NCBI GenBank assembly: GCA_022821845.1
Contig: JAJECT010000007.1
Span: 1 to 47,565 of the forward strand
Length of the DNA: 47,565 bases
Direction: 5' to 3'
Origin: Rhodothermales bacterium
GTDB taxonomy: Bacteria > Bacteroidota > Rhodothermia > Rhodothermales > VXPQ01
The notes below the pieces were generated by a model that saw nothing but the letters and a program-made list of their open reading frames with translations, made no database searches and had not been told where the DNA came from. The translations under genes and the position numbers were made by a program. Of this stretch, positions 1,730-46,045 are shown one piece after another. How positions within the stretch are numbered: position 1 is the stretch's first letter; each line of letters opens with the position of its first letter.

Positions 1730-2193
1730 ATGTCAAGAGCCTCCCTCAATCGATCACCGCATTTAATCACCGCTATGCTCTTCCGTTGTCCACGCAATCG
1801 CAGTTTCCTCGCGCGAAGTCTTTCGATATCTTTTCGATGGGGCGTTTTTCTGCACGCTAAGACAGGAACAAACTGGAAGGAAATTCCTTGGGGAAGCCAC
1901 ATATTCGCCATTCGTATTCCTCCTTCAAGTTGCTCCAGGACAGCACTAACGCTGAATTTTCCGCTCTTCAGTTCAATCGGAGCGACCCAGGTCACGTTGC
2001 TATCTTGGCCAACGAATAGATAATCGCACCGTTTTACAGCATTCGAAATCGACAGTGCTGTACAGTCCATATCGACAATGATCCGCACCTGCGGCGCCTC
2101 GTCCAAATCAACCCGGCATTTGTCTTTGTCGCAATGGGAAGTGCGGCAACTGCCGGGCACCATGCAGGCAATCTTTGCAACCGTATCACTCAT
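1726..2193 (-). CDS. Small PD-(D/E)XK nuclease-like protein
   Basis: 155 residues, unnamed. Residues D57 (in RCDYLFVG), E74 and K76 (in PIELKSG) have the spacing of a PD-(D/E)XK nuclease core, and Q88-L89 sit where the following helix often carries a conserved Gln. The N-terminus is cysteine-rich (C10, C16, C21, C26), which could bind a metal, though no standard zinc-finger spacing is obvious. Its ATG overlaps the stop of the upstream AAA ATPase and its stop overlaps the ATG of the DUF1156 methylase, both as ATGA. It could be the nuclease arm of an ATPase-nuclease-methylase defence operon. The fold assignment rests on three residues and their context, so nuclease activity is inference. Confidence 0.6.
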
Positions 2194-3671
2194 TCCGGCT
2201 CGCTGTCTTGTATGCGATTGGATATTTTTATGCCGTCGTTGTACAACTCCAGGCTTACATCGTCAAAATCCGTTTGGAAAAGACCCGTTTCCGTATCCAG
2301 TTCCAGTTCTTGCACGACCGCCCCCTTCGGGCGAGCGCCAGATTTAAACAACCATGCTCCGACCTGATCGGGACGGAGCGCCGGCTCTGCGCCTTCAATC
2401 CCTTTTCTTCGCTCTTTAGAAAGTCTCGACGCCTGCACCAGATTGGCGACCGTCTCCAGCACCCATTCGCTGTGCGTAGTAACAACCACCCGGATTCCTG
2501 CATGAACAAGCGCGGCGAGCTGGCGAGTGAATTCGACCTGCAAGGCCGGGTGGAGATGCGCTTCCGGCTCTTCGATAATCAACACGTCGCCCGGCTGGAT
2601 CACATGACGCAAATATAACACGACCGGCGCCAATTCCGATACCATGGAAGAGGCATGCATCAGGGGCAAGTCGTCTTTCCAACCTTTCGGACGGTACAGA
2701 AAATTTGGATAACCTACTATCCCCGACCTGTCGATGCGCACCGATCCGTCAAGAACGGATGCCTCGATTTTCTTGTCCAGATTGTGCTGTCGTTCGGACA
2801 GACCAACTCTTCTGCGCCCGTTCTTCCCGTGACCGAGATCGATTAATTCTTGCAGAAACGTCGCAAGCACACCCGAAAGCATGGGTAGACTGTTTCCCGG
2901 TCGCAGACCCGCCATGGGCGCGTTTCCGACAATCGCGCTGACGACTGTGCTATGCGCATGCATTATACCTGTCCGGTCAGCCGGGAGATAGAAAGCGCGG
3001 GAGTCAAGGGAGCCGAAGAGTCGAGGTTCGACACAATGGATAAAATATTCATACCACATTTCGCCTTCATCTAATTCTATCCTTGGATCCGTGTAACTTA
3101 GAAAATAGTTCTTGTCGAATCGGATCCGCAGCCCCTCGGGGATTGTAGTATTAACCTCGAACAGCTGCTTCCCGATAGCCAACTCCTGCTTAAATATATC
3201 CGAATTTCCCGATTCATGTCTTCGAAACCCGATGAATGCATCTTTCCGGCTTCCTTTGCGAATCAATGCATTCGCGTTATCCATGCCAAAACACAAACGG
3301 AGTTTTTCGCAGATATCCTTGCCGCGCCTGTCCAATATGCATCGCATTGCATCTCTCATAGCGTTGGGGATATTGATTACACTACCTCCAGCAGGCATTT
3401 TTTTGTCCGCAAAGGTATTTTTGCGCCACTCGGCGAGCGTTTTGGCGGTTTGGGATGAATTCCAGTTTTCAGGATGCCAAAACATAAAATCCCTTTGTTT
3501 CCGGTTGAAATGCCGATGCAGCGCATAGATCAGAACCGCCAGATACGACTTGCCCGTATTGCTCGGTCCAACGAACACCGTCAGCGGCCGCAAATCGATC
3601 CTGGCCCTGGCGATCGGACCAAAGTCCGTTACCTCGACCTCAAGCGTGTCTTTTGTGGATGAGTCGTTCAT
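2190..3671 (-). CDS. AAA family ATPase, ABC/SMC-like, defence operon
   Basis: 493 residues. The N-terminus has the strand pattern of AAA_15/21-type ATPases followed by Walker A GPSNTGKS (35-42). Walker B is LIIEEPEAHLHP (about 364-375), followed by the switch region VVTTHSEWVLE. This layout, with a long middle insertion, is shared by ATPases of OLD-like, PtuA-like and other phage-defence systems. No Toprim or nuclease domain is seen after Walker B, so a partner probably supplies the effector. The adjacent PD-(D/E)XK-like gene, overlapped by four bases, is the obvious candidate. The start ATG at 3671 overlaps the stop of a small upstream frame, again as ATGA. Confidence 0.88.
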   Translation of the reverse strand: MNDSSTKDTLEVEVTDFGPIARARIDLRPLTVFVGPSNTGKSYLAVLIYALHRHFNRKQRDFMFWHPENWNSSQTAKTLAEWRKNTFADKKMPAGGSVINIPNAMRDAMRCILDRRGKDICEKLRLCFGMDNANALIRKGSRKDAFIGFRRHESGNSDIFKQELAIGKQLFEVNTTIPEGLRIRFDKNYFLSYTDPRIELDEGEMWYEYFIHCVEPRLFGSLDSRAFYLPADRTGIMHAHSTVVSAIVGNAPMAGLRPGNSLPMLSGVLATFLQELIDLGHGKNGRRRVGLSERQHNLDKKIEASVLDGSVRIDRSGIVGYPNFLYRPKGWKDDLPLMHASSMVSELAPVVLYLRHVIQPGDVLIIEEPEAHLHPALQVEFTRQLAALVHAGIRVVVTTHSEWVLETVANLVQASRLSKERRKGIEGAEPALRPDQVGAWLFKSGARPKGAVVQELELDTETGLFQTDFDDVSLELYNDGIKISNRIQDSEPE

Positions 3672-3880: not shown

Positions 3881-3899
3881 TTAAGGTCCCGAAATGCAA

Positions 3900-3918: not shown

Positions 3919-3988
3919 GCCCTTTTCCATACTATCTATATCGTCCACAATCTAGCCCTTCTGCCCATGCGGGATCGCCCCATTCCCT

Positions 3989-4486: not shown

Positions 4487-4830
4487 GGGTTTAAGGTAAA
4501 TAGCGACGGAATATCTCGCAAGCCCCTCCCTAAAAAGGAACCCGAACGCAGGAACCCGACATATGCTCGCTAATTAATGTACGAACGTGTCCCACACTTT
4601 GTTGGCACAGAGGGAAAGGCGCGGGGGACAAGGCTGAGCCACCCCAACCCCGGAAAGATCCGGAACCGCCCCATATCTCCTGAAAATTTGCCCCGCGTCC
4701 GCAAAGCGCTCAAATCGCCCGCCCCGCGGCATCCGGGGATTCGGGGAAATACCTGAACGGCGCAGGCGTTATCTTTGGAAAGGAATGCCTGTACCCCGCC
4801 GCGCTGCAAGACGCCTGGAAAAGAATCGAC
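4487..4830. other. Gene-poor stretch with possible 5' extension of the next gene
   Basis: No complete gene is seen. From TGA at 4681 the frame of the following ATPase stays open to its ATG, and the last part reads protein-like (GVIFGKECLYPAALQDAWKR), but no ATG or GTG precedes it. Bases 4690-4710 recur with one mismatch at 20132-20152, and 4738-4753 resembles 20105-20120, so the stretch holds short dispersed repeats. Confidence 0.5.
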
Positions 4831-5820
4831 ATGCCGCTCGTCAAGCAACTACAGGAAGTGTGGGATGCGCTAAGAGCGGACAATAGCCGGCGCGACCACG
4901 CGCTGCAATCCATCCGCATCCGAAACCTGCGGGGCATCCAGGACCTGCGCGTACCTTTTACGTATCCCGTCAGCGTACTGGCCGGGCCCAATGGATGCGG
5001 CAAATCCACGGTGCTGTTCGCCTGCGCCTGCGCATATCGGGATCCCAAGCGAAAACCGAAGGACCTGACGCCAAGCAGCCTCTTTCCCAATTTCGACAAT
5101 CGGCGGCAACAGGAACTTTCGGATTCGATAGAACGCACGGAACTGGCGTTCGACTACATCCACGAGGGCGCCAACTACCCCATGGACTGGAACCGGGGTA
5201 AATCCTGGAACCGCAGTTTCAGGGGACGAAAGGGCGGCAAGCAACCCGAGCGAACCGTATACCTGCGTACGCTGGCCAACCTCACGAACCCATCCGAAGT
5301 ACGCGGCTTGCTGCAACTTGCGCGCAAGGAGTTCGAGACGGAAACCCTCACGCCCGACCTGCTCATCTTTGCGCATCGCATCCTGCGGCGGCGCTATCGG
5401 AATCTGTCCGTCATCGCCTCGGGAGACCGGGATCTGCTGTTCGCCGAAACCGAAGACGAGCAAGCCGCGGAACGGTACGGACATCATGCGCGGCTCGTAT
5501 TCCTTCCTGGCGACGCCTCTCCGGAACACTGGGTATGGAATCGCCTTCGCGAACATCCGCAAGAATACGCCGCTGCGCTGGGCAGTACGCAGCCAGGCCT
5601 GGAGCGTAATATGCAAGAGATCGAGCAACTTGTCGAAGGGGGCGTACAGCAAACTTCTTTCATAAAATCGGCCCTGAATGCGCTGGGCGACAACCTGAAC
5701 CGCCCGCCCCAGGACATCGCCCGCCTTGCCGGACGCACGGAAGCGGAAAAGAAGCGTGGAGACATGGCGCGCTTCCTCGTGGAATTCGAAGAGCGCATCG
5801 CGGCCTGGCGGCAACCATAA
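4831..5820 (+). CDS. OLD-like AAA ATPase with apparent internal deletion
   Basis: 329 residues. An AAA_23-like N-terminus, with SIRIRNLRGIQDLRV and Walker A GPNGCGKST (52-60), runs normally to about residue 210 (FAETED). It then passes straight to HHARLVFLPGDASPEHWVWN, which resembles the C-terminal region of overcoming-lysogenization-defect type ATPase/Toprim proteins. The ABC signature, Walker B (an EEP- or DEP-type motif), switch histidine and Toprim acidic residues are all absent. Full-length relatives are usually about twice this size. The frame is intact, so either an in-frame deletion removed the catalytic centre or this is a shortened non-catalytic variant. It stands alone next to an accessory operon. 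The family call is moderately sure; the deletion is inferred from recollection of family layout. Confidence 0.65.
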   Translation: MPLVKQLQEVWDALRADNSRRDHALQSIRIRNLRGIQDLRVPFTYPVSVLAGPNGCGKSTVLFACACAYRDPKRKPKDLTPSSLFPNFDNRRQQELSDSIERTELAFDYIHEGANYPMDWNRGKSWNRSFRGRKGGKQPERTVYLRTLANLTNPSEVRGLLQLARKEFETETLTPDLLIFAHRILRRRYRNLSVIASGDRDLLFAETEDEQAAERYGHHARLVFLPGDASPEHWVWNRLREHPQEYAAALGSTQPGLERNMQEIEQLVEGGVQQTSFIKSALNALGDNLNRPPQDIARLAGRTEAEKKRGDMARFLVEFEERIAAWRQP

Positions 5821-5938
5821 GCGGCAACCGTAAGCCGCATCCTGCAACGCGTCCCGACCTCGGAAAATCCTTCCGAATGCAGGGGACGCCGCCCGAAAAG
5901 CGCAGCCCCGGCGCGCGCTACGCAAGGCCCACGCCGAA

Positions 5939-7564
5939 TTACCCGCTCCCGCCCTGCAACCGCACCACCTGATGTTCCGCCGTATCCATATCGAGCGTTT
6001 CGCGGAGCATCTCCAGAAAGTCCATGCCGTATTTATTGAGGAAATGTAGCGCGCACAGCCCCCGCTCCTGCAACACCCCGTTCGGATACACATTCGCCTG
6101 CGCCTTTTCGAGGCGGGCGCGCACGATCTCCTGTTTTTTCTTTTCGGCCCGAACCGCCTTCGCCCGCAACCGGGCCAGTTCGTCCGCCATCGCCTTCTCG
6201 GCCGCATCGGTCGCCTTGTCCAGCGTACCGTCCACCTTGCGCAACAACGCGCGCACCGGCCCCGTGGCCTCGCCAAGACGCCGCGCCGCCTCGTCGAACG
6301 TTTCGTCGAGCGTTCCCTGCATCGCGCCCGCCACGACGCGATGGAAGAGCTGGTCCGCATCCACTGAAAAATCCCCCACCGTCAAGCCATACGCATCCAG
6401 CGCCTTCGCCACATGCGGTTCCAGAAAAGTGGCGCTCGCCCGCGGATAAACAAGCGGCATGGGCAGCCCCGCCCAGGCGTACAGGGGGCGACACTGCGCG
6501 AAATAGGCGATCTCGCCCGGGCCGCCCGCATACATCGCCGTGGGCAGCAACAGATCCTGCATCAAAGGACGAAGCAATACGTTCGGACTGAACGATTCCG
6601 GAGATCGATGCACGAGGTCCAGGGCTTCCGCCCGCGTCATGCGCCGCCCCGCGCCCCGCGCCACAAAGTCCTCGCCGTCGAGATCGAGCGGAATGCGGCG
6701 CCCCGCGTCCAGCAAAAAAAGATTGGACGAACGAACGACCGCCTGCGCATGGTAGGCGCGTCCCAGCTCCTCCGAAACCGCGCGCGCAAGGGCCGCAGCC
6801 GTTTCTGCTTCCTCGATTTCTTGCGCGAAAAGCGGCGCCGCAAGTCGCTTGAGGGCCGCATCGTCAGGATCGACAATCACCAGTTCGGGAAAAAGGACCC
6901 GAAGCATCCGGGCGAACCCCTCGGAAAGCGTTGCGTCCGCCCCGTACGCCGCCCGAACCATACGCACTATATCCTCTTTGAAATCCGTATCGGGAAGAAA
7001 CTGCTCCAGGCGGTCCATAACTTCGTCGCCGGGCCGTATGCGACCGGTCGGGCCGGCGGACGCGGCGGCGTCTGCCGGCAAACGCACGGCGGCGGGACGA
7101 TTGCCGCGAAGCAAGACCGCGCTCGAAACCTCGTCCACATCGTGATCTTCGCCGCCCAGCCAGAACACCGGAACCGTACGCCGCCCCGTTTCTTCGGCAA
7201 GCCGTTCGGCCAATCGAATGGCGGAAAACGCCTTCAGAACGGCGTACGTCGGGCCCGTAAACAGACCCACCTGCTGCCCGGTCACCACCGCAACGGTATC
7301 CGGGGCGCGCAATGCCTCGACGCCGTCTCGCGCCGCATCGCTATCGCCCCAGTTCGCATGTTGCGCGGCAAGCGCATCCGCAAGCGCATGCCGGTCCCGC
7401 GTACGCGCCGCAGCCCGATCCGCCGCGCGCGCTCGTTCCGCGGCCTCGCGCCAGTCGCCCGCAAAGTAGTCCGCAAGCGCCTCGTAGCGCGTACAATAAT
7501 CCCGAAAAAGCGCCGAAAAGCCGTGCAAATCGGTAAACGAAATACGCGCTGCGGACGCCTGCAT
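5939..7564 (-). CDS. bshC: Bacillithiol synthase, cysteine-adding enzyme
   Basis: 541 residues, the normal BshC length. It adds cysteine to glucosaminyl-malate in the last step of bacillithiol synthesis, in the cytoplasm. Recognisable blocks are VVTGQQVGLFTGPTYAVLKA and FWLGGEDHDVDEV in the Rossmann-like core, a C-terminal coiled coil (about 440-500), and YPNGVLQERGL with FLNKYGMDFLEML near the end. It is the last gene of a tight minus-strand run after hisD, hisC and the DUF151 gene, with a 47-bp gap. Bacillithiol is the usual low-molecular-weight thiol of Bacteroidota relatives and Firmicutes, consistent with the other taxonomic hints. Confidence 0.96.
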   Translation of the reverse strand: MQASAARISFTDLHGFSALFRDYCTRYEALADYFAGDWREAAERARAADRAAARTRDRHALADALAAQHANWGDSDAARDGVEALRAPDTVAVVTGQQVGLFTGPTYAVLKAFSAIRLAERLAEETGRRTVPVFWLGGEDHDVDEVSSAVLLRGNRPAAVRLPADAAASAGPTGRIRPGDEVMDRLEQFLPDTDFKEDIVRMVRAAYGADATLSEGFARMLRVLFPELVIVDPDDAALKRLAAPLFAQEIEEAETAAALARAVSEELGRAYHAQAVVRSSNLFLLDAGRRIPLDLDGEDFVARGAGRRMTRAEALDLVHRSPESFSPNVLLRPLMQDLLLPTAMYAGGPGEIAYFAQCRPLYAWAGLPMPLVYPRASATFLEPHVAKALDAYGLTVGDFSVDADQLFHRVVAGAMQGTLDETFDEAARRLGEATGPVRALLRKVDGTLDKATDAAEKAMADELARLRAKAVRAEKKKQEIVRARLEKAQANVYPNGVLQERGLCALHFLNKYGMDFLEMLRETLDMDTAEHQVVRLQGGSG

Positions 7565-33491: not shown

Positions 33492-34781
33492 ATGGCAAAG
33501 ATAGAAGGATTGCATATAAAAAATTTCAAGACCCTCAAGGACGTGGCACTGGGCCGTCTATGGGACAAGCAAAGAATCAAGCCGCTTACCCCCATGACGG
33601 CAGTCATTGGCAAGAATGGTGTTGGGAAAAGTGCTCTGTTCGATGCATTCGGTTTTCTTGCGGACGCGCTCAAGGCTGGTGTTGAGGAAGCTTGTGATAG
33701 TCGAGGACGAGGTGGATTTGACAAAATGCGAACACAAGGAAAAACGGGACCTATTGAATTTGAGATATACTATAGAGAGAACTCAAATGCCAGACCCATT
33801 ACGTACGAAGTCGCCATTGAGCCGGACAAATTCGGACGTCCCTACGTATTAAAGGAGCGTCTTAGACAAAGACGTAGAGGGCAAAGACACGGACGTCCAT
33901 TTTCTTTTTTAATACTCAATAATGGACGTGGCTTGGCATGGAAAGGAGAGCAAGAAGGACATCAATTTAATGAAGAAGAGGAAACATTTGATCCCGAAAG
34001 ACTATTGAATAAGTTAGGAGCAGAAAAAGAAGAATCTAGTGAAACTGAGATTGTCGAACTCGAAGATCGCCGAAAATTCGGCATTGCTACACTTGGTGCT
34101 TTGAAGCAACATCCAAGAATTTCTGCTTTTCGTCGTTTCATTGAGGGATGGTATCTTAGCTACTTCACCCCGGACGCAGCCCGGAGTTTACCACTGGCTG
34201 GACCTCAAAGTCGTCTAAATACTCATGGCGACAACCTCGGCAATGTTGTACAATTTATGAAGCGAGAACATCCGCAACGTTTCCAAGCTATCCTGAAAAA
34301 TATCGCTGGAAAAATTCCAGGTATAGATCGAATCGATACAGAAAGAACGAGTGATGGACGATTACTACTCTGCTTCAATGACAAAGGCTTTCACGACCCA
34401 TTCTATGCCCAGCAAATGTCCGATGGAACTTTGAAAATGTTCGCATATTTACTTTTACTCGAAGACCCATCCCCCCCTCCCTTCCTCTGTATTGAGGAAC
34501 CTGAAAACGGATTATACCATAAACTGCTTGAAACCCTTGCCGACGAGTTCCGCGAACACGCCGTACGTCGTAGAGGCGGTGGCTCACAGATTTTCGTTAC
34601 CACGCATCAGCCCTATTTGGTCGATGCTCTTGACCCGAACGAAGTCTGGATTTTGGACAAAGGCAGCGACGGGTTATCGACCATTCGCCGTGCAAGCGAC
34701 GATTCGCTCATAAATAACATGGTTGAAGAGGGATTGACCTTAGGCGGTCTCTGGTACAGCGATTATCTCAATGCGAGGTGA
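33492..34781 (+). CDS. AAA family ATPase of a two-gene ATPase/Toprim-like pair
   Basis: 429 residues. Walker A GKNGVGKS (40-47), Walker B FLCIEEPENGLY (about 331-342), then FVTTHQPYLVDAL. This is a COG4637-like predicted ATPase of the OLD/ABC group, without its own nuclease. The next gene supplies a DUF4276 Toprim-like protein, starting four bases after this stop. The DNA is visibly more AT-rich than the flanks from about 33700, suggesting recent transfer. Confidence 0.9.
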   Translation: MAKIEGLHIKNFKTLKDVALGRLWDKQRIKPLTPMTAVIGKNGVGKSALFDAFGFLADALKAGVEEACDSRGRGGFDKMRTQGKTGPIEFEIYYRENSNARPITYEVAIEPDKFGRPYVLKERLRQRRRGQRHGRPFSFLILNNGRGLAWKGEQEGHQFNEEEETFDPERLLNKLGAEKEESSETEIVELEDRRKFGIATLGALKQHPRISAFRRFIEGWYLSYFTPDAARSLPLAGPQSRLNTHGDNLGNVVQFMKREHPQRFQAILKNIAGKIPGIDRIDTERTSDGRLLLCFNDKGFHDPFYAQQMSDGTLKMFAYLLLLEDPSPPPFLCIEEPENGLYHKLLETLADEFREHAVRRRGGGSQIFVTTHQPYLVDALDPNEVWILDKGSDGLSTIRRASDDSLINNMVEEGLTLGGLWYSDYLNAR

Positions 34782-34785
34782 CCAT

Positions 34786-35445
34786 ATGCATTTTGAAATA
34801 CTCGTCGAGGGCATATCTGACAAGAAAGCGTTACAGGTTCTGGTTCCTAAAATTATCGGTGATCAGAATACTTTCAACATTTATTCTTACAGGGGAATTG
34901 GCCGTATACCCAAGAATATGACAGATCCTATTGTCGCAAAAAACAAGCTGCTGTTAAATAATTTGCCAAGGAGACTCAGAGCATACGGAAGAACATTTTC
35001 GAGTTATCCCAACAACTATTTAACAACAGTTATTATAATTTGCGACTTGGATAACAAATGTCTAAAAAAATTTCGCACAGAACTCTTTAGCGTTCTGAAT
35101 TCATGCAACCCAAAGCCAAGAACCCGATTCTGCATCGCCATAGAAGAAGGCGAAGCATGGCTACTCGGTGATATTTCCGCCATCAAAAAAGCATATCCGA
35201 AGGCGAAGAACAATATTCTCAATAGTTACGTAAACGATTCTATTTGTGGAACTTGGGAGTTATTGGCCAATGCAGTATTCGCCGGAGGAGCCGCAAAATT
35301 GATAAAGCGAGGTGGACAAGCCACAGGCAAAGAAAAATGTCAGTGGGCAGAAAAAATCGCGCCCCATATGGACGTAGACGCCAATAAATCGCCCAGCTTC
35401 CGCTATTTCCGGGACACGATGCGGGCGTTGGTTGGGATGTCGTAG
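34786..35445 (+). CDS. DUF4276-like Toprim protein, partner of AAA ATPase
   Basis: 219 residues from ATG 34786; an in-frame ATG at 34771 would overlap the ATPase end. The Toprim-like signature is E8-G9 in ILVEGISDKKAL and D87, D89 in VIIICDLDNKC. Later blocks FCIAIEEGEAWLLGD and APHMDVDANKSPSFRYF fit DUF4276-type proteins. With the ATPase it resembles ATPase-plus-Toprim immune pairs, where the nuclease is released or activated on sensing phage. Activity inferred only. Confidence 0.78.
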   Translation: MHFEILVEGISDKKALQVLVPKIIGDQNTFNIYSYRGIGRIPKNMTDPIVAKNKLLLNNLPRRLRAYGRTFSSYPNNYLTTVIIICDLDNKCLKKFRTELFSVLNSCNPKPRTRFCIAIEEGEAWLLGDISAIKKAYPKAKNNILNSYVNDSICGTWELLANAVFAGGAAKLIKRGGQATGKEKCQWAEKIAPHMDVDANKSPSFRYFRDTMRALVGMS

Positions 35446-35457
35446 AAAGTATGCTTA

Positions 35458-35577
35458 TTACAATCGCTCTATGAGTTGCGTTTTAACCGTTTTCGCCGCA
35501 TCATCCATATTCCATTGAAAATCCGGTATCCATGGCGCCTGGGAGCGCCACGCAGTAATGTAATCGCGTGGAATCAC
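35458..35577 (-). pseudogene. Shortened AbiEii-like toxin remnant
   Basis: A 39-residue frame starts with GTG that overlaps the AbiEi stop as GTGA. Its N-terminus VIPRDYITAWRSQAPWIPDF resembles the start of AbiEii nucleotidyltransferases. It then goes straight to QWNMDDAAKTVKTQLIERL and a stop, which resembles the far C-terminus of the same family. The nucleotidyltransferase core, about 250 residues, is missing, so the toxin is dead. The C-terminal match is tentative. Confidence 0.55.
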
Positions 35578-36377
35578 AGTTCTGCCTCCACATCGGCGTT
35601 GACGATAAGGTTCCAATCGGCAGCGCGATGCGAACCCTGTCCAGGAGATTCATTCAGGAGCAGTGCAGGACGGCAGGATGCCTGTTCAACATATTTTTTG
35701 AGCGCGCCGACGGTTTGTCCGGCGCCCACGCGCTCAAGAAGATAACCCAATCGCTGCGCCCAGGTAACAGGGGCGGTTTTCGCCGCGGCGACCAGCTTCC
35801 GCGAATCGATCCGTTCCGCAAGTTCGGACAGGATGGTCGCCACCTGATCCAGACCGCTGGCATGATGGTGGTATCCAACCAGATCGACAGCCGTTGCCTC
35901 GGGAGTGGAAACATGTATTACCCCGCGAGGCGTGTTGAAACGCTGCACTGGCACCTCGCCCAAGCGCTTGCGCGTAATGAACGCCACGCGCACAGGACCG
36001 CACTCAAGGAAACGCCGCGCCGTACTCAGAAATACCTGAAATTCTTGCGGACGGTGATGTGCAGCGCCGTGATATTGGGCAGCCGTAAGCAATCCCGCAT
36101 AGTAGGATAGGTTCAGGCGACCCATCAGCTCCGGGATAAACTGATCTGCCGGCAGGCAGCCAAGAGATCGGTATTCCGGGGGAACAATCACATAGAACCC
36201 TCTCGCCGGCGTCGCAACGAGATGTTGCCGCGCGAGGCGGTTCAGGGCCAATCTGGCTGCGTCCGCGGAAACGCCGAGCGCCTCGCACGCCTCGCCGGAA
36301 CAAAAATGATACCGTCCGGCGGCGGCAAGGTCGGCGATATAATCCCTGGCGCGTATACGTTTCTTTTTCGTTTTCAT
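35574..36377 (-). CDS. AbiEi-family antitoxin
   Basis: 267 residues from ATG 36377. An N-terminal winged helix (YHFCSGEACEALGVSADAARLALNRLARQHLV) precedes the AbiEi antitoxin domain (FYVIVPPEYRSLGCLPADQF, LNLSYYAGLLTAAQYHGAAHHRPQ). It represses the operon and, in intact type IV systems, neutralises the AbiEii nucleotidyltransferase. Here the partner is reduced to a short frame, so this is an orphan antitoxin. A strong dyad lies directly before the start. Confidence 0.9.
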   Translation of the reverse strand: MKTKKKRIRARDYIADLAAAGRYHFCSGEACEALGVSADAARLALNRLARQHLVATPARGFYVIVPPEYRSLGCLPADQFIPELMGRLNLSYYAGLLTAAQYHGAAHHRPQEFQVFLSTARRFLECGPVRVAFITRKRLGEVPVQRFNTPRGVIHVSTPEATAVDLVGYHHHASGLDQVATILSELAERIDSRKLVAAAKTAPVTWAQRLGYLLERVGAGQTVGALKKYVEQASCRPALLLNESPGQGSHRAADWNLIVNADVEAEL

Positions 36378-36379
36378 AT

Positions 36380-36410
36380 GCACAAAGTATCGAATTTTGA
36401 TACTTTATGC
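36380..36410. promoter_or_regulatory. AbiEi operator: large near-perfect palindrome
   Basis: AAAGTATC (36384-36391) and GATACTTT (36399-36406) form an 8-bp dyad around a 7-bp loop. Beyond one mismatched base, GCA (36380-36382) and TGC (36408-36410) also pair. It ends three bases before the abiEi ATG, where AbiEi antitoxins are known to bind for autorepression. Confidence 0.75.
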
Positions 36411-36451: not shown

Positions 36452-39400
36452 CTACGCGGCCACATCCGTTTCCGTATCCCCGGCCTCAAGGGCGCTCATG
36501 TAGGCGAGGATCAGGTCGAGGGTACGGTAGCGACCGAATTGCTTCTCGTCTTCGCGGCGGACGATGGGGAAAGCGCTCAGTACGTACTCCGCGTCTTCCC
36601 GATCCAGTCCGTAAAGGTGAAAGTAGAGCGCGTCAAGCCGGGCCCGCAAGTGGCGGCGCTCCTCTTCGTCCCAGATGAAGGGCGGGCCGTCGTAGCCGAG
36701 GTCGCGGGCGAACGGCGCCATGTCGTGAGCCGTGTAGGTGAGCCGGAGCACATGGTCGCGAACCAGTTCGCGAGCGGTTTTGCGGCCAAACGGACGGTCA
36801 TAGTCGGCGGGGGCGATGACGGGGAGTTGTTCGACAATAAACCAATTGAGGTGCTGTCCCTGAACCTTCTGCCGACTTACAAAATCGAGAGCAAAGGAAT
36901 TAAAACCTGCGACAAACAGCCATGCATTCTCTTGATACGCAGTTATGTCCGCTGTATCAGGCATCAGAAACGGCAACGTGTTTCCAAAGCCTGATCTCGG
37001 AACTATCGATGCAATCATGGTCCGTACGTTCGTCGGCGCAGTTACGTCTTTAAATGCTACGACCCATTCCAAATCTTCAGGCCATTCGGCTGCATCCTTA
37101 CTCACCCAGAACTGAGGATCCGGCAACCAATCCGAATTCGCATGTTCTGCATCGGTGGCCTCGTGCGGCTGGGCGGGCCTGTTCAGGTTCTCGGGGTTGA
37201 CCACCACGCTGGCGGCCCGGTGGTCGAATGCCTGCACCATCTTGCCTTCATAGAGCGGCAGGTACAATTTTTCACCCCGTTTCCAGCGGTTGCCTTCGAC
37301 CGGATAAAAACCTTCGGCTTCGAGTAGATCGGCTGTATGGAAAAGTTGGGAATCATTGGTCATATCAAACATGCGCACATATTTCACCGGCCACGCCTTG
37401 CGCTCTCCGCCTCCCGAACGATCCACCAGCACCGGGTGCCTTTCGTAGATGCGGCGCGTGATGTCCGCGTCCCGGCGCGTACGAAAAATGGGCGCTGTGC
37501 CCGTATTCGGGTTCACGCGCATAAAATCGTCCGGGGTTAGCGGAAAGCAGCGATCTTCGTCCCGGATCACCCGTATGTCGTGCAAGAAAAAAGCGCACTC
37601 GGTCCGCTCGAATCGCCGCGCTTCTCCGCCAAGAATGAGCGCGCAGAATTTGAAGGAGGCGTGCACATCCTTGAAGAAAATTTTCTTGTTCTCAAAATCG
37701 AACAGCCCGGACACCCGCCCTTTCGTGGAAACGGACTGGAAGAAACGGGCCGCCGTTTTGTCCGCGTAAATCCCCGAAGGCGTCAACAAGCCCACAAATC
37801 CATCTGGCTTGACGAGATTCAGCGCCCGCTCCACAAACAGGGAATACAAATTGATGTCGCCGCCGCCAAGCAAGGGGTAATGCCCGGATTCCCGGACCAG
37901 GCAACCGAGCCGGTCCGAACGCCCCTTTGCGGCGTCGAATGCTGTCGCGAGAGGCGCTCCCTCTTTGCGCAATTGCTTGATGCCGTCCTTGCGCGCCTTC
38001 GCAGTCGGCGCCAGCGCAAGTTCCGGGGCGCGCGTAGCAAACCACTCCACCTCTTGCAACTTGATCTTGTCCCATGGCGGATTCCCGATGATGGCATCGA
38101 AACCCCCTTCTGGATGCGCATGCTGCCACCGCCGCCATACTCCCGGAAAAGCCACTTCCCAATGCAAAAAGCCTTCCCGGTTGGCAATGCCGCGGACTTT
38201 GAGCCACCGCTCGCAAAAAATTGCCCAATCCGCATCGTCGGAAGCAGGCGCGCTCTCGCCGAGATGCTCCGGGCCATGCGCCAGCAGTTCGTACGCATGT
38301 TCCGCTTGCTGCCCAAGCGTTTTCAGGAGCGGGGCTTCAAAATCAGCCTTCTCTCTCTTCTTCATGCCCGCCGTCAACCAGCGCCAACCGCAGAAAAAAT
38401 CCAGCAGGCCCCTGAGCTTGGCCGTCGTTTCCTCCACGGCGCTAAATAGCGACGCCGATTCGCGCACCTCCGCTATATCGGCATCGGACATCTCCTCGAT
38501 GCGTTGCATGCCGGTTGTAGCCGCTTCGGCTCCGGCTATGGCAGATGCAGCGAACACGCCGCCCAGCCGATGCATATCCTGCACCGCCTCCTGTACCCGC
38601 AAACCGATCAGCGAATCGCCGCAGCGCAAGTGATGATCCAGAAAAGACAGCGGCGCACCCACCGTGAAACTGTGCAGCCAAAGCGACACCTTGGCCAGTT
38701 CGACGGTCAGGCGGTTCTTGTCCACCCCGTAAATGCAGCGTTTGAGCACCATCCGGCGTACGATGGCCTGATCGGTGAGTTGGGCTTTATCCAGCACCCA
38801 GTCCGATTCGCTGGCCCGGCGAACGATTTCGCGGCGAATCGCCTCCACGCGCTCCACCAGCGGGGATACGTACTCTCCGCCCAGCCATTCTGGAACCGCA
38901 GGCACGTATTCGATCAATTCGGCAATGTAGTCCGACAGAAAATCCACCGCCGTGACCAGGAAGTGCCCGCTTCCCATCGCCGGGTCCAGCACCTTCAAAT
39001 CAAGCACGGCCTCCGCCGGGTCGAACTTGCGCAACTCGGCTGCCCGCTGCGCCCGGGGCCTGCGGTCGCTCGCCAATTCCTCGGCCTTTTTCTCGAAGGC
39101 GGCAAGCCGCTCCTCGGCCAGCGGCTTCAGGGTCCGCTCTACGATCAGATCGACCAGCTCCTGCGGGGTGTAAAAACTGCCGCTGTCCTTGCGGGCGTAA
39201 CTGTTGGGGCGCACCGAGATTTTCCCTTCGTCGTCCCGCACCGGCTCGCGCTCCAGCAACCGTTCGTAAATCGAACCGAGTTGCTGCACGGACATGTCGC
39301 GGTAGTTCACGAAATGGCGTACGCCCTGCGCATCCCGCGCATGACTCAGGTTGTAAACGATGGGGGCCACCTGCGCATCGGACAAGCGGATATCGTCCAG

Positions 39401-40492
39401 GAGCGGAGCCGCCTCCGGCGCAAACAATCCCCCATTGTAGGGCGGCAAACCAATGGAAGCATCCCCTTCGTCGATGATGCGAAAAAGATCGACAAGGCAG
39501 CTCCAGTAGTTCGCGGCCCGGGCGGAAAAAGTATCCTTGTCGGCCATTCTGCGCGCAATATCGTCCCGCACCCGCTTGCGCAGGCCATAATCGTCGTACC
39601 GCGCATCGTTCACGGGCAGCAAACCCCGATCCTCGGCATAGAGCACGAAAAGGAGGCGATAGAGAAAGATCAGCGCCGCATCCCGGCTTTTGTCGAGTTT
39701 CTTCCCGGATTCCCCGGCGATCGCATCGACAAGATTCGGAAAAACGCGCTCGAACACCACGCCCGAAAGGTCCTGCGCCACCCGTTCCTCGTAACGCTTG
39801 CCCTCGGCCAGCGCCCGTTCGAGAAATGTGGTCGCAGACCCCGGTTCGGGCACGAAAGCATCTCGGCGGAACAGCAGATAGAAAACCCGGAGCGCGTCTT
39901 CGTTGCCGGGTTCGAGCAAATCTCCGAGATTGGCCTCATAATAGCCGGCGGCGCGGGGGCGCGCACGGCCGTCGTAGAGACGCCACACGGCCCCATTGGT
40001 CAGGATGCCCCAGCGAATGCGTCCGTCCGTAACGCTCTCGGCGGTGGACAGATACTGCAATATCTGCCCGTGCGGGGTGCCGCGTTGAACCCGATCACTC
40101 CCATCGCGATTGTCGAGAGGCAGACCGAAACGCTTGCTCTCCTCTATCGCCAGCGCGTCCAGATAGCGGTCTTGCGAACGGGCGCGGGCAGCGGCCTGCG
40201 CTTTCGAGGCGGCATCCGCAAAAAGCAGATGGTCAGGAATGTCCTCGTTGCGGGCTGCGCCCTGCTGCGGCAGATAATCGTTCCACCCCAGCAACTCCAG
40301 CGCCGGACGAATCAGGTCCTGCTCCGTAACGGCTTCGTTGGGATCGCGCGATTGGCGAAGGACCTCATAGCGCCGGCCCACATTCTCTCTAAACGAAACA
40401 AGCGCCTCCGGGTCGGCTGCCGAAGCCTTCCATTCCGCCGTTTCGCGTATGCCGTCGGTCAGGAAGTAATGCGTGAACAGTTGGCCGGGCAT
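36452..40492 (-). CDS. Type IIG-like restriction-modification protein (Eco57I methylase domain)
   Basis: 1346 residues from ATG 40492 (an upstream ATG at 40549 adds 19 poorly conserved residues). An N-terminal nuclease-like region has PDHLLF and, about 30 residues on, LAIEESKRFGLPLD, giving D87...E118-x-K120. The helical linker is followed by an N6-adenine methylase: motif I LDPAMGSGHF (about 502-511) and motif IV GNPPW (about 803-807). A long C-terminal target-recognition region completes the single-chain restriction-modification layout. It is 88 bp after the STAND gene on the same strand and probably co-transcribed. PglX-type BREX methylases look similar but no other BREX gene is here. Confidence 0.88.
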   Translation of the reverse strand: MPGQLFTHYFLTDGIRETAEWKASAADPEALVSFRENVGRRYEVLRQSRDPNEAVTEQDLIRPALELLGWNDYLPQQGAARNEDIPDHLLFADAASKAQAAARARSQDRYLDALAIEESKRFGLPLDNRDGSDRVQRGTPHGQILQYLSTAESVTDGRIRWGILTNGAVWRLYDGRARPRAAGYYEANLGDLLEPGNEDALRVFYLLFRRDAFVPEPGSATTFLERALAEGKRYEERVAQDLSGVVFERVFPNLVDAIAGESGKKLDKSRDAALIFLYRLLFVLYAEDRGLLPVNDARYDDYGLRKRVRDDIARRMADKDTFSARAANYWSCLVDLFRIIDEGDASIGLPPYNGGLFAPEAAPLLDDIRLSDAQVAPIVYNLSHARDAQGVRHFVNYRDMSVQQLGSIYERLLEREPVRDDEGKISVRPNSYARKDSGSFYTPQELVDLIVERTLKPLAEERLAAFEKKAEELASDRRPRAQRAAELRKFDPAEAVLDLKVLDPAMGSGHFLVTAVDFLSDYIAELIEYVPAVPEWLGGEYVSPLVERVEAIRREIVRRASESDWVLDKAQLTDQAIVRRMVLKRCIYGVDKNRLTVELAKVSLWLHSFTVGAPLSFLDHHLRCGDSLIGLRVQEAVQDMHRLGGVFAASAIAGAEAATTGMQRIEEMSDADIAEVRESASLFSAVEETTAKLRGLLDFFCGWRWLTAGMKKREKADFEAPLLKTLGQQAEHAYELLAHGPEHLGESAPASDDADWAIFCERWLKVRGIANREGFLHWEVAFPGVWRRWQHAHPEGGFDAIIGNPPWDKIKLQEVEWFATRAPELALAPTAKARKDGIKQLRKEGAPLATAFDAAKGRSDRLGCLVRESGHYPLLGGGDINLYSLFVERALNLVKPDGFVGLLTPSGIYADKTAARFFQSVSTKGRVSGLFDFENKKIFFKDVHASFKFCALILGGEARRFERTECAFFLHDIRVIRDEDRCFPLTPDDFMRVNPNTGTAPIFRTRRDADITRRIYERHPVLVDRSGGGERKAWPVKYVRMFDMTNDSQLFHTADLLEAEGFYPVEGNRWKRGEKLYLPLYEGKMVQAFDHRAASVVVNPENLNRPAQPHEATDAEHANSDWLPDPQFWVSKDAAEWPEDLEWVVAFKDVTAPTNVRTMIASIVPRSGFGNTLPFLMPDTADITAYQENAWLFVAGFNSFALDFVSRQKVQGQHLNWFIVEQLPVIAPADYDRPFGRKTARELVRDHVLRLTYTAHDMAPFARDLGYDGPPFIWDEEERRHLRARLDALYFHLYGLDREDAEYVLSAFPIVRREDEKQFGRYRTLDLILAYMSALEAGDTETDVAA

Positions 40493-40580
40493 AGGGGAAT
40501 TTGGGGTTTGTTTTGGAACGGATATCGACTTTTTGCAAGGAAACGGCATCCGGGATTTCGCGTTGCCAGACGATTTCAGG

Positions 40581-43500
40581 TTATTTACCGGCTGATTTGC
40601 CTTCGGGTATGCTCACGTCGATAACGCATACCGAGATTTTGCGGGCTTGTTCGGGCGACAGCGACGCTTTCAGCCATTCCTTGATCTGTTTGGCGTTGTC
40701 CGGGGCCCCGTTCTCATGCGGAGTTCGGGTATACTCTGAGCCGAACCAGAAAACGAGATAAATGCCGTAGCCGTCCGCGCCGGGATCCACCGTATACTTC
40801 GCAATCAACTGGTCATGCATCGCGCTCCAGAGCTTCGGGTGCGCATTCTTCTTGATTTCTACGGGTACGTTGAAACCTGCATAGGAAACGCGAATGTCGG
40901 CCCGCTTGTCGTTGGCGTACTGCCCCTCGGGCTGGGCGTCTATGCCCAACGGCCTCAACTTTTCCTGCAAATCCGATAACAGATTGTCGCGGCATGCGTC
41001 CTCTGCTCTGTGAAATGGCGCTGAATCATGCGCATTTTCGGCATCCGCCGCTTCTTTTCGCAGCGGTCGATTGTACGAATCGACATTCCAATACTGCCGC
41101 CAATCCGAAGTAGGACCCCTTCGAATCTTGCTGCCGATTTCGTTCAGGCAATCCATCGCCAGCGCCGCGAGGTCGGCAGGGTTGGCGGGCGGCCCCCCAT
41201 CCAGCGTCTTGCAGACCTGCTCAACGTCGGGATCGTCGCGACGAATCGTGCGCTGGTTGTCTTGCGCCTTTTTTAGTACGTCGCGCCACCGCTCCAGCAC
41301 CGGGTCATCAACAAGGCGCGCAAGGGCATGGGTTACTGCTTCGTCGGGAGAATTGGTCAGGTCTTCAATCAGCATGTGCACAAGATCAGATGCATGGTCT
41401 CCCCCCCAATAAGGCCCGACAGCGCTGCCCAGAAGACGAATAAGCAATTCCCATAACGGAATATTCGCTACATCGAACCGAAACAATTCACGGCCTGCAT
41501 AGGACGGCATGTGCGCCTCCTCTTTAGAAGCGACTCCGTACACGCGACTCCCGAAGAACGCCTTGAGGTAACGAACACGGTTGTACCGTTCCTCCTGTAC
41601 GAAATCCTTCAGAATATCCGTGTATTCTTCGGGCCAAACCATAGCCGCCGCCGTCAGCCAACGCACCCTCTGAGCGGCCCGAATGCTCTTCAGGGATCGT
41701 TTTGTATCAATGAGCTCCCGGAACGAGGGCCTGTCGGCGTACTTGATGGCGGCCCATAACAAATGATTCAGTGCCGAAAGGTGGCTTTGCCGTTCTGGAG
41801 CGCGCAGAATCGGGAAGGCGCGAAGAAGAGGCAGAGTCGCGTGTTTGGCGACTTGCGCATGGTCGGAATCACGCTCAAGACGCTGAAATTTATCGACAAA
41901 AGGCGATGCGTAATCATGACCACCCCGAAATACGCAGCGACCGTACTGGATCAGCACATCCGCAACGATTTCAGCGCGCTCTGCAATAAGTTTTCGATAC
42001 CATTCGGGACAATATCCCTGCCCCGTGGGCATATGCAAATGATTTCCGTAACAGTAATAGAAAACGACTGCCTTGCGAATTCGATCATCAGTCCACGCTG
42101 CTGCATCGTCCTCGGGTGCTGTCCTTTGCATTTCTTCCAGGCCCGCCAGGAAAGGCAGGCCAAGGTAGTGCATACGACGCTCGCTTTCCAAGCCTAAAAC
42201 TTCCTCGACATCCGGTACATCTTCCCTGTCGATCACGCCGCGGAGGCCCTGCAAGGCCGCCTCGGTTAAATTTTGGTCGCCGTAAAGCCATTTTTCGACA
42301 GCCTGCACCCCGCCGCCGGGGCCTTCCTGTTCGACAATCGCAGGACGTTCTCTTGCAAGCTTTAATCCGCCGGAATTCGCGAACCCGCTAAAATACTTCC
42401 TCGCTATCTCGTAAAGCAGACCGGGATCAACCCGACTACCACGCAATGCGGCTTCGTTGGAACGAAAACGATCAAGCATAAATTGTTGCTGTTCTTGCCT
42501 TCTTCTCGCCCTCTGTTTGAATGTGTCAGAAGGCAGCGGAGGAGGTGGTAAAAGTCGCTCTACAATCGGGCGTAATACTTCGCGTTTTCCTGCTTGTTCT
42601 TGAAAGACCTTGCGCGATAGCCCCGCGTCGCCCTTTTGGCTTTCAAGTATACGGAAAGCCTCCCTTAACAGGTATTCCGCCACTCGAAATTTCGAGTCTG
42701 CCATATCAACAGCCTTTTCAAGACACCACAGGCCAATATCCGCGGGCAGGCGGGCGCCATGCAAACGATTTGGAACACCGCTTGCGCATAGCCTGAATTC
42801 GTCGGATTCGGGACAGCGAGACAGTCCTTCCAGAAGAACCGCCCTTTGCATATCGGGACGTTTTTCCAGCCATGCGCGGATTTCGGCGACAGCCTCATCG
42901 CGGTCCTGCCCTCCGAAATCGTCAACCCAACCCGCGTCAAGCCAATCATACAAGCGTTTCGTATCCAGTTTGTCGCCATACGCCTTCAGACCACGAGACA
43001 GAAGTTCCCAAGGAAGATCGTAAAAGTGTCGGCTTGCGATAACGGATCGCAAGCGGGGAAGCCGCTTGTTGAGCTCGTCAAGCAGTTCGGCCACTTGCTC
43101 ATCCGAGGACAACTCCACAAGGTCATGGAGCCAGAATTGGGTGTCTCCCCCCACATGCGCTTCTTCTAAAAGGTAATTCCACACCTCCGAGGGCGATAAA
43201 TGCCGGGGATATAAATGCGTCAGCAGCGTACCGAGAAGCACCTTGTTCAAATCGGCAACGCGCTCCGCCCGCACATCTTCCAGCAGCGTTTTTAGTTGCC
43301 TGATCGTATCCTCGTTATCCGGCGCGTTATGGATAAATGCGCCGAGGGCGGGGTAACGAATCCGCGGCCACCGCGTGTCGTCCCGAACAATTTCCAGCAG
43401 CAGCCCGGCAAGGCCCGGAAGCGGTTCGCCCGCCTGCAATACGCGCACCACCAGATCGACCACGTTTTGGTGCGCTTTCTCCCGACTGGAGTCGTCCAGA

Positions 43501-44789
43501 ATATCCCGAAGCAGAGGCTCCATGCTCTGCGCGGCAAGCGTCCGAAAGGCCACAGCCTGTTGCCACCCAGGAAAATCAAGCCGCGACGTCTCGCCCTTCA
43601 GTGCATGCAACAACGCGCGTTTTTCGTCGCGCAAGAACGTACTGATATCGCCGTATAGCCCGACGCCGACGGGATCCTGTTCGATGAGATACCCACGGGC
43701 ATCCTTGCTATGCGCGGCAAGCCAGGCAGACAAGCCCCGCATTTCCGTAACCACGATGCCATCCCTTCCGGTAATAAGCGCGATGATGCGGCGGGCGGGA
43801 ACGCCTTCTTCGATAACGCCGGCAAGATGCCGGGCCGCAAGAAATTCGGCGATGTGGCGATGGATCGGGAGAAAACGGTTAGCGCCAATGCCCTTGAACA
43901 ACTTTGTGGCGAGCGCTGAACGAAGCGCAGCAAGGTCGTAGCCGCACTGATCCAAATCGGGATACTTTGCGTCCGCCTCGCCGCGTCGCGTATACCCATA
44001 AGCACCCGAAATCAATTGCACGGCGCAAAGCCGACCGGCGGCGTCAAGCAATGGCTCCGAATCAAGCGTGTTTTGGCAATCCCGCGCCGCCCGGTGTTCT
44101 TCGTTATGCTCGCGAACCATCTTCTCGCACGCTTTTCCGAAGAGTTCCTTGCGGCTTTCGGGCCACGCATCGCCCGCCCCAACAACCTTGGCAAGCAAGG
44201 TAAGCGTCTGCGGATTCTCCAGAAACACGCCCATGCGTTTCTCTTGGGCTAAAGCAATGAATTTACTGGCATTGGGAATATCTGATCGGGCTTTCAAAAT
44301 TTTCTCGACATCGCCAAGAGTCAGTGGATCAAGTTGAAGAATAATCAGGTCAGAATCTCCAGTTATGGTCTTTAACTTATTCTCGTCGAGTCTTCCGCGC
44401 CAGTCAGCGTGGCGACACGATAAACGAAAACGCGGAGCATCAAGTGCGCGAAGAATCTTCCGAATTTCCCTGAACTGCGCTCCCATATCCTGAGAACCTG
44501 CCCGGACCTCATCCAGTCCATCAATGAAGATCGTCTTGCCTCGCCATTCATCTGGCAAATCATTTGCATCATATGACAGAAATTCATCGGCAGAAACCGG
44601 GCGGTGATAAGCCTCCTCCCAAAGCGCCTCGCATTCCATCTCGAACGCCGTCGTTTTGCCTGCGCCGGGATCGCCAAGCAACACATAGGCCGGAACGAAA
44701 CGGAAGGCTTCAAGGGGCCTGGAAACCCCCTCCTCGCGCCGTTCGCCGTCCTTTTCCCGAATCTCGGTGCATGTGCGGGATACTCTCAT
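40581..44789 (-). CDS. NACHT-like STAND ATPase with C-terminal PD-(D/E)XK domain
   Basis: 1402 residues. ATG 44789 was chosen because it overlaps the upstream DUF4143 gene stop (ATGA). The N-terminus has almost no effector region. Walker A GDPGAGKT (39-46), NACHT-like Walker B IFIDGLDE (87-94), and LSCRHADWRG as sensor-1-like. A long alpha-helical region of about 900 residues follows, probably the sensor. The C-terminus (about 1270-1402) has D1298 (RADIRV), E1311-I-K1313 (VPVEIKK), Q1327 and then strand GIYLVFWFG, the order expected of a PD-(D/E)XK nuclease. Known Avs proteins carry their nuclease at the N-terminus, so this order is unusual. Family and function are inference; no name is assigned. 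Confidence 0.82.
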   Translation of the reverse strand: MRVSRTCTEIREKDGERREEGVSRPLEAFRFVPAYVLLGDPGAGKTTAFEMECEALWEEAYHRPVSADEFLSYDANDLPDEWRGKTIFIDGLDEVRAGSQDMGAQFREIRKILRALDAPRFRLSCRHADWRGRLDENKLKTITGDSDLIILQLDPLTLGDVEKILKARSDIPNASKFIALAQEKRMGVFLENPQTLTLLAKVVGAGDAWPESRKELFGKACEKMVREHNEEHRAARDCQNTLDSEPLLDAAGRLCAVQLISGAYGYTRRGEADAKYPDLDQCGYDLAALRSALATKLFKGIGANRFLPIHRHIAEFLAARHLAGVIEEGVPARRIIALITGRDGIVVTEMRGLSAWLAAHSKDARGYLIEQDPVGVGLYGDISTFLRDEKRALLHALKGETSRLDFPGWQQAVAFRTLAAQSMEPLLRDILDDSSREKAHQNVVDLVVRVLQAGEPLPGLAGLLLEIVRDDTRWPRIRYPALGAFIHNAPDNEDTIRQLKTLLEDVRAERVADLNKVLLGTLLTHLYPRHLSPSEVWNYLLEEAHVGGDTQFWLHDLVELSSDEQVAELLDELNKRLPRLRSVIASRHFYDLPWELLSRGLKAYGDKLDTKRLYDWLDAGWVDDFGGQDRDEAVAEIRAWLEKRPDMQRAVLLEGLSRCPESDEFRLCASGVPNRLHGARLPADIGLWCLEKAVDMADSKFRVAEYLLREAFRILESQKGDAGLSRKVFQEQAGKREVLRPIVERLLPPPPLPSDTFKQRARRRQEQQQFMLDRFRSNEAALRGSRVDPGLLYEIARKYFSGFANSGGLKLARERPAIVEQEGPGGGVQAVEKWLYGDQNLTEAALQGLRGVIDREDVPDVEEVLGLESERRMHYLGLPFLAGLEEMQRTAPEDDAAAWTDDRIRKAVVFYYCYGNHLHMPTGQGYCPEWYRKLIAERAEIVADVLIQYGRCVFRGGHDYASPFVDKFQRLERDSDHAQVAKHATLPLLRAFPILRAPERQSHLSALNHLLWAAIKYADRPSFRELIDTKRSLKSIRAAQRVRWLTAAAMVWPEEYTDILKDFVQEERYNRVRYLKAFFGSRVYGVASKEEAHMPSYAGRELFRFDVANIPLWELLIRLLGSAVGPYWGGDHASDLVHMLIEDLTNSPDEAVTHALARLVDDPVLERWRDVLKKAQDNQRTIRRDDPDVEQVCKTLDGGPPANPADLAALAMDCLNEIGSKIRRGPTSDWRQYWNVDSYNRPLRKEAADAENAHDSAPFHRAEDACRDNLLSDLQEKLRPLGIDAQPEGQYANDKRADIRVSYAGFNVPVEIKKNAHPKLWSAMHDQLIAKYTVDPGADGYGIYLVFWFGSEYTRTPHENGAPDNAKQIKEWLKASLSPEQARKISVCVIDVSIPEGKSAGK

Positions 44790-46045
44790 GGCGACGCCTC
44801 CCCGAACCAATGTCCGGCGGGCAGGGAAAAAAACTCGTTGAGCGGTACGCCCCCCTCCCCGACAACCAGCGAATCCTGCGCGCGAAAACGCTTCTTGAAC
44901 TCGTCCATGCCGCGCAAGACGCCTCTGTGCAAACCGCTTTTGATTTCTACGGGAAGGATCCGCCTACCCTTTTGCAAGACAAAATCCACTTCAAAACGGC
45001 CTTCGCGCCAGTAATGCATCTTGATGTCGGGCGTTGCGGTATTCAGCAAATGCGCGCCCGCCGCGCTTTCGACAATGCGTCCCCAAAAGGTCCGATCCGC
45101 CTGCGCCTCCTTGAAGGAATACCCCGAGCCGGCTGTCATCAGGGCCGTGTTGAGCACAGTAAACTTGGGACTGGAAGATTTGCCAGGATGCGGTCGGTTC
45201 GCATACTTCGGCAATCCGGCAAGCAGCCCGGCGTTCGACAGCAAATCAAGATAACGCGCCAGCGTAGTCGTGTTGCCTGCCCCCTGGAGTTGACCCAGCA
45301 TTTTGTTGTAGGACAGAATTTGGCCGGAATACGCAGCGCCTAATTCAAAGAATCGCTTGAGCAAGGCAGGCTTGTCCACGCGGGTCATGTCGAGCAGGTC
45401 CCGCTCGATGGTTGGCTCAATAAGCGAACCGAGAACATAGCCCCGCCACCGGTCCACATCCCGAACGAAACGGGCCGCGCCCGGATACCCACCGAAATAG
45501 AGATACGTATCCAGATCGAAATCGAAGGCCCTGGCCATTTCCGGGAACGACCAATGCCTGACCGATATCGATTCGTAGCGCCCGGCAAGGCTCTCGCTCA
45601 ATCCCGACTGCATGCGCAGCGGAGCCGAGCCAAGAATAACCACATGCAGGGGGCAACCGCTGGCCCGGTCGGCGTCCCACAAGCCCTTGACGGTTTCCGA
45701 CCAGTCCTTAACCTTCTGAATCTCGTCGAATACCAGAACGAATTTCCCCAGGCGCTCCGCCTCGCGCCGGGCATATTCCCAATTACGCACAAGCCAGGTC
45801 GCGTCCTTCGTACCATGAGACACAGAAGCGGTGGTCTCGACCGCATCGAAAGGAGGACGAGGGATGAAAGAATCGGGTTCGTCCACAGCGCAATAGCGGT
45901 GCTCGCAGGAAATCCGCCCCAGCGCCTGACGCGCAATGATGGTCTTGCCTGTCTGGCGAGGACCGAACAGGGCGACCAGCTGACGAGGCGCTTCGCCCAA
46001 CCGCTGAACGAGGGCGCTAACTTGCATACGCTGGAAAGGGTTCAT
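44786..46045 (-). CDS. DUF4143-type ATPase C, first gene of the STAND operon
   Basis: 419 residues. Walker A GPRQTGKT (28-35), Walker B VLVFDEIQKVKDWSE, sensor block ILGSAPLRMQSGLSESLAGRYE. The DUF4143 C-terminus has FEVDFVLQKGRRILPVEIKSG. It shares many stretches with ATPase A (for example GAYSGQILSY-like and QGAGNTTTLARYLDLL blocks) and has the same palindrome upstream. The stop overlaps the STAND ATG by four bases. It might load, regulate or guard the STAND protein, or simply be a hitch-hiking member of its family. Confidence 0.9.
   Translation of the reverse strand: MNPFQRMQVSALVQRLGEAPRQLVALFGPRQTGKTIIARQALGRISCEHRYCAVDEPDSFIPRPPFDAVETTASVSHGTKDATWLVRNWEYARREAERLGKFVLVFDEIQKVKDWSETVKGLWDADRASGCPLHVVILGSAPLRMQSGLSESLAGRYESISVRHWSFPEMARAFDFDLDTYLYFGGYPGAARFVRDVDRWRGYVLGSLIEPTIERDLLDMTRVDKPALLKRFFELGAAYSGQILSYNKMLGQLQGAGNTTTLARYLDLLSNAGLLAGLPKYANRPHPGKSSSPKFTVLNTALMTAGSGYSFKEAQADRTFWGRIVESAAGAHLLNTATPDIKMHYWREGRFEVDFVLQKGRRILPVEIKSGLHRGVLRGMDEFKKRFRAQDSLVVGEGGVPLNEFFSLPAGHWFGEASP

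Follow-up and report, generated by a model that had tools for sequence, protein, structure and literature searches.

A HEC-04/OLD-like ATPase-Toprim gene lacking its catalytic middle in a Rhodothermales bacterium

Closest described systems and content of the short frame

HEC-04 (PDLC04149) and the 1557-bp ibfA, whose product IbfA belongs to IncI1 plasmids, are described in PMC12111858 as single genes in which an ATPase is followed by a Toprim domain. The present locus was also compared with the OLD family (Class 1 and Class 2 proteins, GajA and the retron Eco8 effector) and with the ATPase-Toprim protein of type I-B retrons; the Toprim glutamate, glycine and DxD motifs mentioned below follow the definition given in PMC6755086. 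For E. coli YbjD, PMC13261556 reports that the anti-phage phenotype is kept in the absence of the Toprim domain and in a Walker A mutant (lysine), and that it is lost in the absence of the ATPase domain.

The gene studied here lies in a 47,565-nucleotide stretch of contig JAJECT010000007.1 (the window) from a Rhodothermales bacterium (assembly GCA_022821845.1); the coordinates of its parts, and those of other genes of the window, are given in Table 1. As described in the original prediction, a Walker A motif and a C-terminal FLPGDASPEHWVW block are found in one intact frame of 329 aa. The E of SPE in this block is invariant in the eight aligned proteins (8/8), which comprise the window protein, its orthologue from a sister genome (see below), five further full-length relatives and one more distant protein. 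Pfam matches to the 329-aa protein were confined to residues 17-112, that is, to the N-terminal P-loop part, where AAA_23 (residues 27-112) passed the cut-off and AAA_15 (residues 25-63) fell slightly below it. HEC-04 was the best PADLOC model (E 6.6e-17), aligning to residues 20-209 through model positions 22-203 of 494, and the other 24 PADLOC models shown matched the region round the P-loop. In contrast to HEC-04, the window copy lacks the ATPase core and the catalytic part of Toprim, and most of the profile is left uncovered.

Table 1. Parts of the short ATPase-Toprim frame and other genes of the window.
Feature	Position in the window	Strand	Length or residues	Basis
Remnant frame of the HEC-04/OLD-type ATPase-Toprim gene	4831..5820	+	329 aa	
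Walker A GPNGCGKST	4984..5010	+	aa 52-60	
Retained N-terminal piece, first part of the ATPase domain	4831..5457	+	aa 1-209 = sister residues 1-210	
Deletion junction, one surviving copy of the 12-bp direct repeat, CGAGCAAGCCGC	5457..5468	+		DNA alignment to the sister
Retained C-terminal piece, predicted last Toprim strand and helical domain	5469..5817	+	sister residues about 404-520	Model of the sister protein
FLPGDASPEHWVW block	5500..5538	+	aa 224-236	
PD-T4-4_A-like AAA ATPase	2190..3671	-		
HEC-01B / DUF4276 protein	34771..35445	+		PADLOC, E 4.7e-92
AbiEii toxin gene remnant	35458..35577	-	39 codons	
AbiEi antitoxin, intact	35574..36383	-		
Type IIG restriction-methylase / DrmMI-like gene	36452..40549	-	1365 aa	
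Frame with P-loop-like GDPGAGKTT	40581..44810	-	1409 aa	

When the protein was aligned with the 520-aa sister protein, sister residues 211-400 were found to be missing from it. In sister numbering, and according to our own assignments from the alignment, this segment holds the signature HMSSGER (220-226), the Walker B LILIDEIEAG (242-247; D246/E247), the putative H-switch histidine H280 and the putative Toprim residues E332, G361 and D390xD392, all of them inside the lost block. The absence of the signature, Walker B and Toprim residues, which the original prediction had also claimed, was thus confirmed by the sister alignment, and no second Walker B was seen in the 329-aa frame. The segment PDLLIFAHR was considered as a substitute Walker B and rejected, since the sister contains it too, in addition to a Walker B of its own. 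Compared with OLD proteins, then, the window copy has the Walker A of an ABC-type ATPase and is without the signature, Walker B and H-switch histidine, and on the Toprim side it is without the glutamate, the glycine and DxD. Walker A alone in an open frame is no basis for annotating an active OLD ATPase.

The predicted structure of the 329-aa protein was poor (mean pLDDT 46.9, pTM 0.32). A scan for promoters and terminators gave one weak match each, none clearly above those of shuffled sequences. In its own genome and in relatives, the window protein also produced many weak matches round the P-loop, about 40-70 residues long and located in frames of 381-1302 codons; these were taken as other ATPases.

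The intact sister orthologue and the missing block

A collection of 84,980 genomes was pattern-scanned for the window protein, an approach within whose reach only close relatives fall; 29 stretches matched, one of which was confirmed as a close relative: JAJDWX010000042.1, a Rhodothermales MAG (the sister). The sister gene is syntenic with the window gene, lying between bshC and the same 165-aa gene, and its product has 520 aa from the start codon that matches that of the window, or 538 from an in-frame start further upstream. All six of the other aligned proteins keep the middle, and their signature, Walker B and Toprim motifs fall in the corresponding places. Like HEC-04 and IbfA, the sister is one gene (520 codons) that encodes an ATPase and then a Toprim domain; its best PADLOC match was HEC-04 (E 3.2e-44; residues 18-462, model positions 18-435), and the second best was the retron type I-B ATPase-Toprim PDLC02914 (E 2.3e-21). 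The locus differs from a type I-B retron in that no reverse transcriptase was present among the genes examined (window 1726-8169), which encode BshC, a bifunctional nuclease, a 493-aa AAA ATPase and two proteins (155 and 165 aa) that match no Pfam model.

The structural model of the sister protein was not good either (mean pLDDT 54.1, pTM 0.45), its alignment being as shallow as that of the window protein. It is confident mainly from about residue 330, and the low-confidence ATPase half was excluded from the evidence. The part of the model from about residue 320 to 520 could be superposed on the Toprim and helical regions at the C-terminus of two OLD nucleases, those of B. pseudomallei (Z 10.3, rmsd 5.0, 174 residues) and X. 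campestris (Z 9.5, rmsd 4.4, 175 residues), with 13-16% identity to these regions; the margin of these matches is modest, with the first unrelated structure at Z 7.1. T. scotoductus OLD was the best Foldseek match (E 3.9e-9), and the whole-model TM-scores from Foldseek were low (0.22 in the best row) because of the low confidence of the ATPase half. By sequence, the sister protein gave 16 matches in the PDB, including the OLD-family protein 6p74 and PtuA, a chain of which was the best match (E 3.9e-10). These results support the idea that the intact relative is closest to HEC-04 and that its C-terminal half resembles OLD nucleases; the OLD-like assignment of the original prediction is supported for the intact relative. 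The likeness to the OLD family resides in the C-terminal Toprim and helical regions of the sister model, whereas the window copy, by the alignment, would retain no more of them than the final Toprim strand and the helical domain. The ancestor of the Rhodothermales gene was probably anti-phage.

The DNA alignment to the sister revealed that the window is without one 570-bp block, equivalent to 190 codons and in frame. Both flanks of the gap align to the sister at the DNA level, and the C-terminal piece alone matched the full-length family profile (sister included) with E 2.3e-37, so chance resemblance is of no concern; the window copy is a broken HEC-04 member by descent. Plain local alignments gave a single 570-bp gap with flanks that overlap by 12 bp, and this was taken as the event. 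When run with a wide drop-off, affine-gap BLAST divided the gap in two (267 + 303 bp), and the plain local alignments were preferred. In the sister, each end of the block falls on a copy of CGAACAAGCCGC, the two copies being separated by 570 bp (L009 5630 and 6200), and no other exact direct repeat in the gene reaches their length of 12 bp; the copy that survives in the window carries one substitution with respect to both sister copies. The original prediction had placed the missing segment near 5450-5490, and the junction mapped by alignment with the full-length sister gene, at 5457-5468, falls there.

When a 570-bp deletion was slid along the gene, 12-bp homology between the ends was obtained in 13 of the 993 placements, all of which represent the same event, and the rest had 4 bp or less. 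A repeat of at least 12 bp was present in 17.6% of the codon-shuffled copies of the gene (n = 1000), so the repeat alone is unremarkable. Slippage or single-strand annealing between short direct repeats is an established cause of deletions in bacteria. A 570-bp gap ending on direct repeats is, judged from the sequence, the footprint of a deletion of this kind, for which replication slippage or single-strand annealing would be the mechanism. Among the papers brought up by literature searches, we recognised none that deals with the loss of a HEC-04 or OLD gene through short repeats.

Origin and fate of the short frame

We consider it very probable that the whole observation reflects a recent, lineage-specific loss of a HEC-04-like gene by an in-frame, repeat-mediated deletion. 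A single HEC-04-like gene (ABC-type ATPase plus Toprim nuclease, probably anti-phage) would have been present at the bshC site before the split between this species and the sister, and in the window lineage slippage or single-strand annealing between the 12-bp direct repeats would have removed the 570 bp in one event, with an in-frame outcome that by chance would be expected in 1 of 3 cases. This would have deprived the ATPase of its signature, Walker B and H-switch, and the Toprim domain of its catalytic half. Hydrolysis of the ABC type depends on the signature and Walker B, and the Toprim site on E and DxD; since these elements are missing, both activities should be gone, and the product would be expected neither to hydrolyse ATP in the ABC manner nor to use the Toprim metal site. 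The gene could then be regarded as a fresh loss-of-function allele that would not yet have acquired stops or frameshifts. Because a large part of its ATPase domain is lost, the window copy seems, by analogy, to resemble the inactive case of YbjD more than the active ones. We infer the slippage mechanism, the loss of function, its recency and the defence role of the ancestor; most likely, the short protein is dead and the finding itself ordinary. The locus would nevertheless offer a base-resolution view of a probable anti-phage gene lost in a wild lineage and caught before decay of the frame.

The retained 325 codons carry 33 synonymous and 11 nonsynonymous differences with respect to the sister (dN/dS 0.10), and the synonymous divergence is unequal between the two retained pieces (0.10 and 0.25). 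An intact paralogue of 516 aa is kept by the window genome on contig C35, and the pair that it forms with its counterpart on contig C26 of the sister genome gave a dN/dS of 0.046 over 516 codons. If the remnant has evolved neutrally ever since the deletion, the neutral share of the window branch would be at most 15-28% (from the 95% upper bound on the nonsynonymous count), a bound calculated with a fixed dS and with constrained ratios assumed to lie between 0.10 and 0.03. The low dN/dS and the neutral bound point either to a recent deletion or to constraint on the remnant, and the same values would be obtained from either. The in-frame deletion of the original prediction is supported by the syntenic orthologue, the 570-bp block and the 12-bp repeat together with the low dN/dS, and its recency is one of two readings.

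The other reading is that the short protein has been kept by selection, as a decoy or a regulator (both put forward in the original prediction) or as a dominant-negative partner; it might, for example, bind the C35 paralogue via the helical domain. The open frame with a dN/dS of 0.10 in the retained parts, the availability of the intact paralogue for regulation and the part C-terminal to the junction, which is kept whole, are consistent with such a role. However, at E 1e-40 the 114 genomes of the order and the 395 sampled from the phylum yielded no further short homologue, save one cut by a contig end. In the order there were nine matches in seven genomes, corresponding to seven frames of 525-569 codons, the window and a 209-aa frame in G418; the last of these was rejected as a second short copy since it ends 54 bases from the contig end. 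The genomes sampled from the phylum, which overlap the order sample, gave seven matches in five genomes (six long ones and the window), and within the genus 4 of 6 genomes had a match at E 1e-30, the short form being present only in the window. A family of short conserved homologues, which would speak against the original prediction, was thus absent from the order and phylum samples at a cut-off (E 1e-40) that a distant, lower-scoring short homologue could escape. No match was obtained in phage records at E 1e-10, none of the 50 pattern matches in viral contigs was confirmed, and plasmids gave three distant proteins of 27-28% identity. Only 3 of the 11 amino-acid differences could be polarised by the residue most frequent among the six other proteins; all three had changed in the window and not in the sister, too few to test. 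The poor model of the short protein says little on this point, the full-length model also being weak. Since the low dN/dS fits a recent loss equally well and no short homologues appeared in the genomes searched, the idea of a selected decoy or regulatory protein has gained no positive evidence, and we regard it as improbable.

It could also be argued that the species has the full gene and that the contig misjoins two parts of it or shows a minor variant, given that the window genome is a draft of 45 contigs. The word lengths of the usual (de Bruijn) assemblers exceed 12 bp, so a join at this repeat would need real reads that span it, and the single-base difference of the surviving copy from both sister copies also argues against a misjoin. 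In addition, when the lost 190 residues, as found in the sister, were searched against the window's own genome (95.8% complete, as estimated), the only strong match was the C35 paralogue (57% identity, E 3.5e-65), together with eight weak ATPase-like matches (E 1.1e-6 or worse), which indicates that the block was not simply placed on another contig. An assembly artefact is therefore very improbable in our view. As for the short form being ancestral and the middle having been gained by the sister, we find this scarcely credible: the alignment contradicts it, since 6 of the 6 other proteins have the middle with matching motifs. With the orthologue known from one genome, the deletion was polarised by the presence of the middle in paralogues rather than by a second orthologue.

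Locus setting and other defence genes of the window

In two other genomes (G003 and G004) no such gene lies between bshC and the 165-aa gene, and in a third (G002) this spot is taken by an unrelated 942-aa frame; the bshC match of a fourth (G005) was partial. Given that the spot is empty or carries another gene in G002-G004, the ATPase-Toprim gene is probably acquired cargo at a variable site.

Over the 39 kb aligned between the window and the sister, the window showed two clean losses of 100-1000 bp and the sister showed none, with a size range that was picked after the list had been seen. The same comparison contains smaller indels, a 4.1-kb stretch absent from the sister and three stretches that do not align. 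Both window-side losses are in frame and both affect defence genes, namely the ATPase-Toprim gene (570 bp) and AbiEii (669 bp). By chance, two deletions would jointly be in frame in 1 of 9 cases, and this counts against the account of a recent loss given above. In a second contig pair, of which 30 kb of 71 kb could be aligned, there was no loss of 100-1000 bp and one difference of 17.9 kb. Two events are too few for the claim of a pattern. It appears very improbable that internal, in-frame deletions which spare the protein ends are disarming defence effectors in this lineage, with the longer of the two remnants, at least, being kept to serve the intact paralogue as a regulator or dominant-negative partner. 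Together with the gutted AbiEii, the recent loss of the ATPase-Toprim gene would constitute a small, testable case of defence turnover beside intact housekeeping genes.

The AbiEii remnant has no Pfam match; the window is without 669 bp (223 codons) of this gene, in frame and with about 3 bp of homology between the ends, and the AbiEi gene beside it is intact. At the same spot, the sister has an AbiEii of 263 aa (PADLOC AbiEii, E 4.2e-113). The HEC-01B / DUF4276 gene adjoins the AbiE remnant, in a region where the DNA is only about 75% identical to that of the sister. Next to AbiEi in Table 1 is the Type IIG restriction-methylase / DrmMI-like gene, which is cleanly missing (4089 bp) from this spot in the sister. 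The restriction gene is adjoined by the 1409-aa frame, which had no Pfam match at E 1e-4 and no PADLOC match at E 1e-5. Lastly, the PD-T4-4_A-like AAA ATPase has a C-terminal third nearly identical to that of the sister and a P-loop end that is close to it, and its middle (window 2703-3465) is too diverged for DNA alignment, with a neighbouring 155-aa gene that is 98.7% identical; from the sequence, the middle looks like the product of exchange or rapid change.
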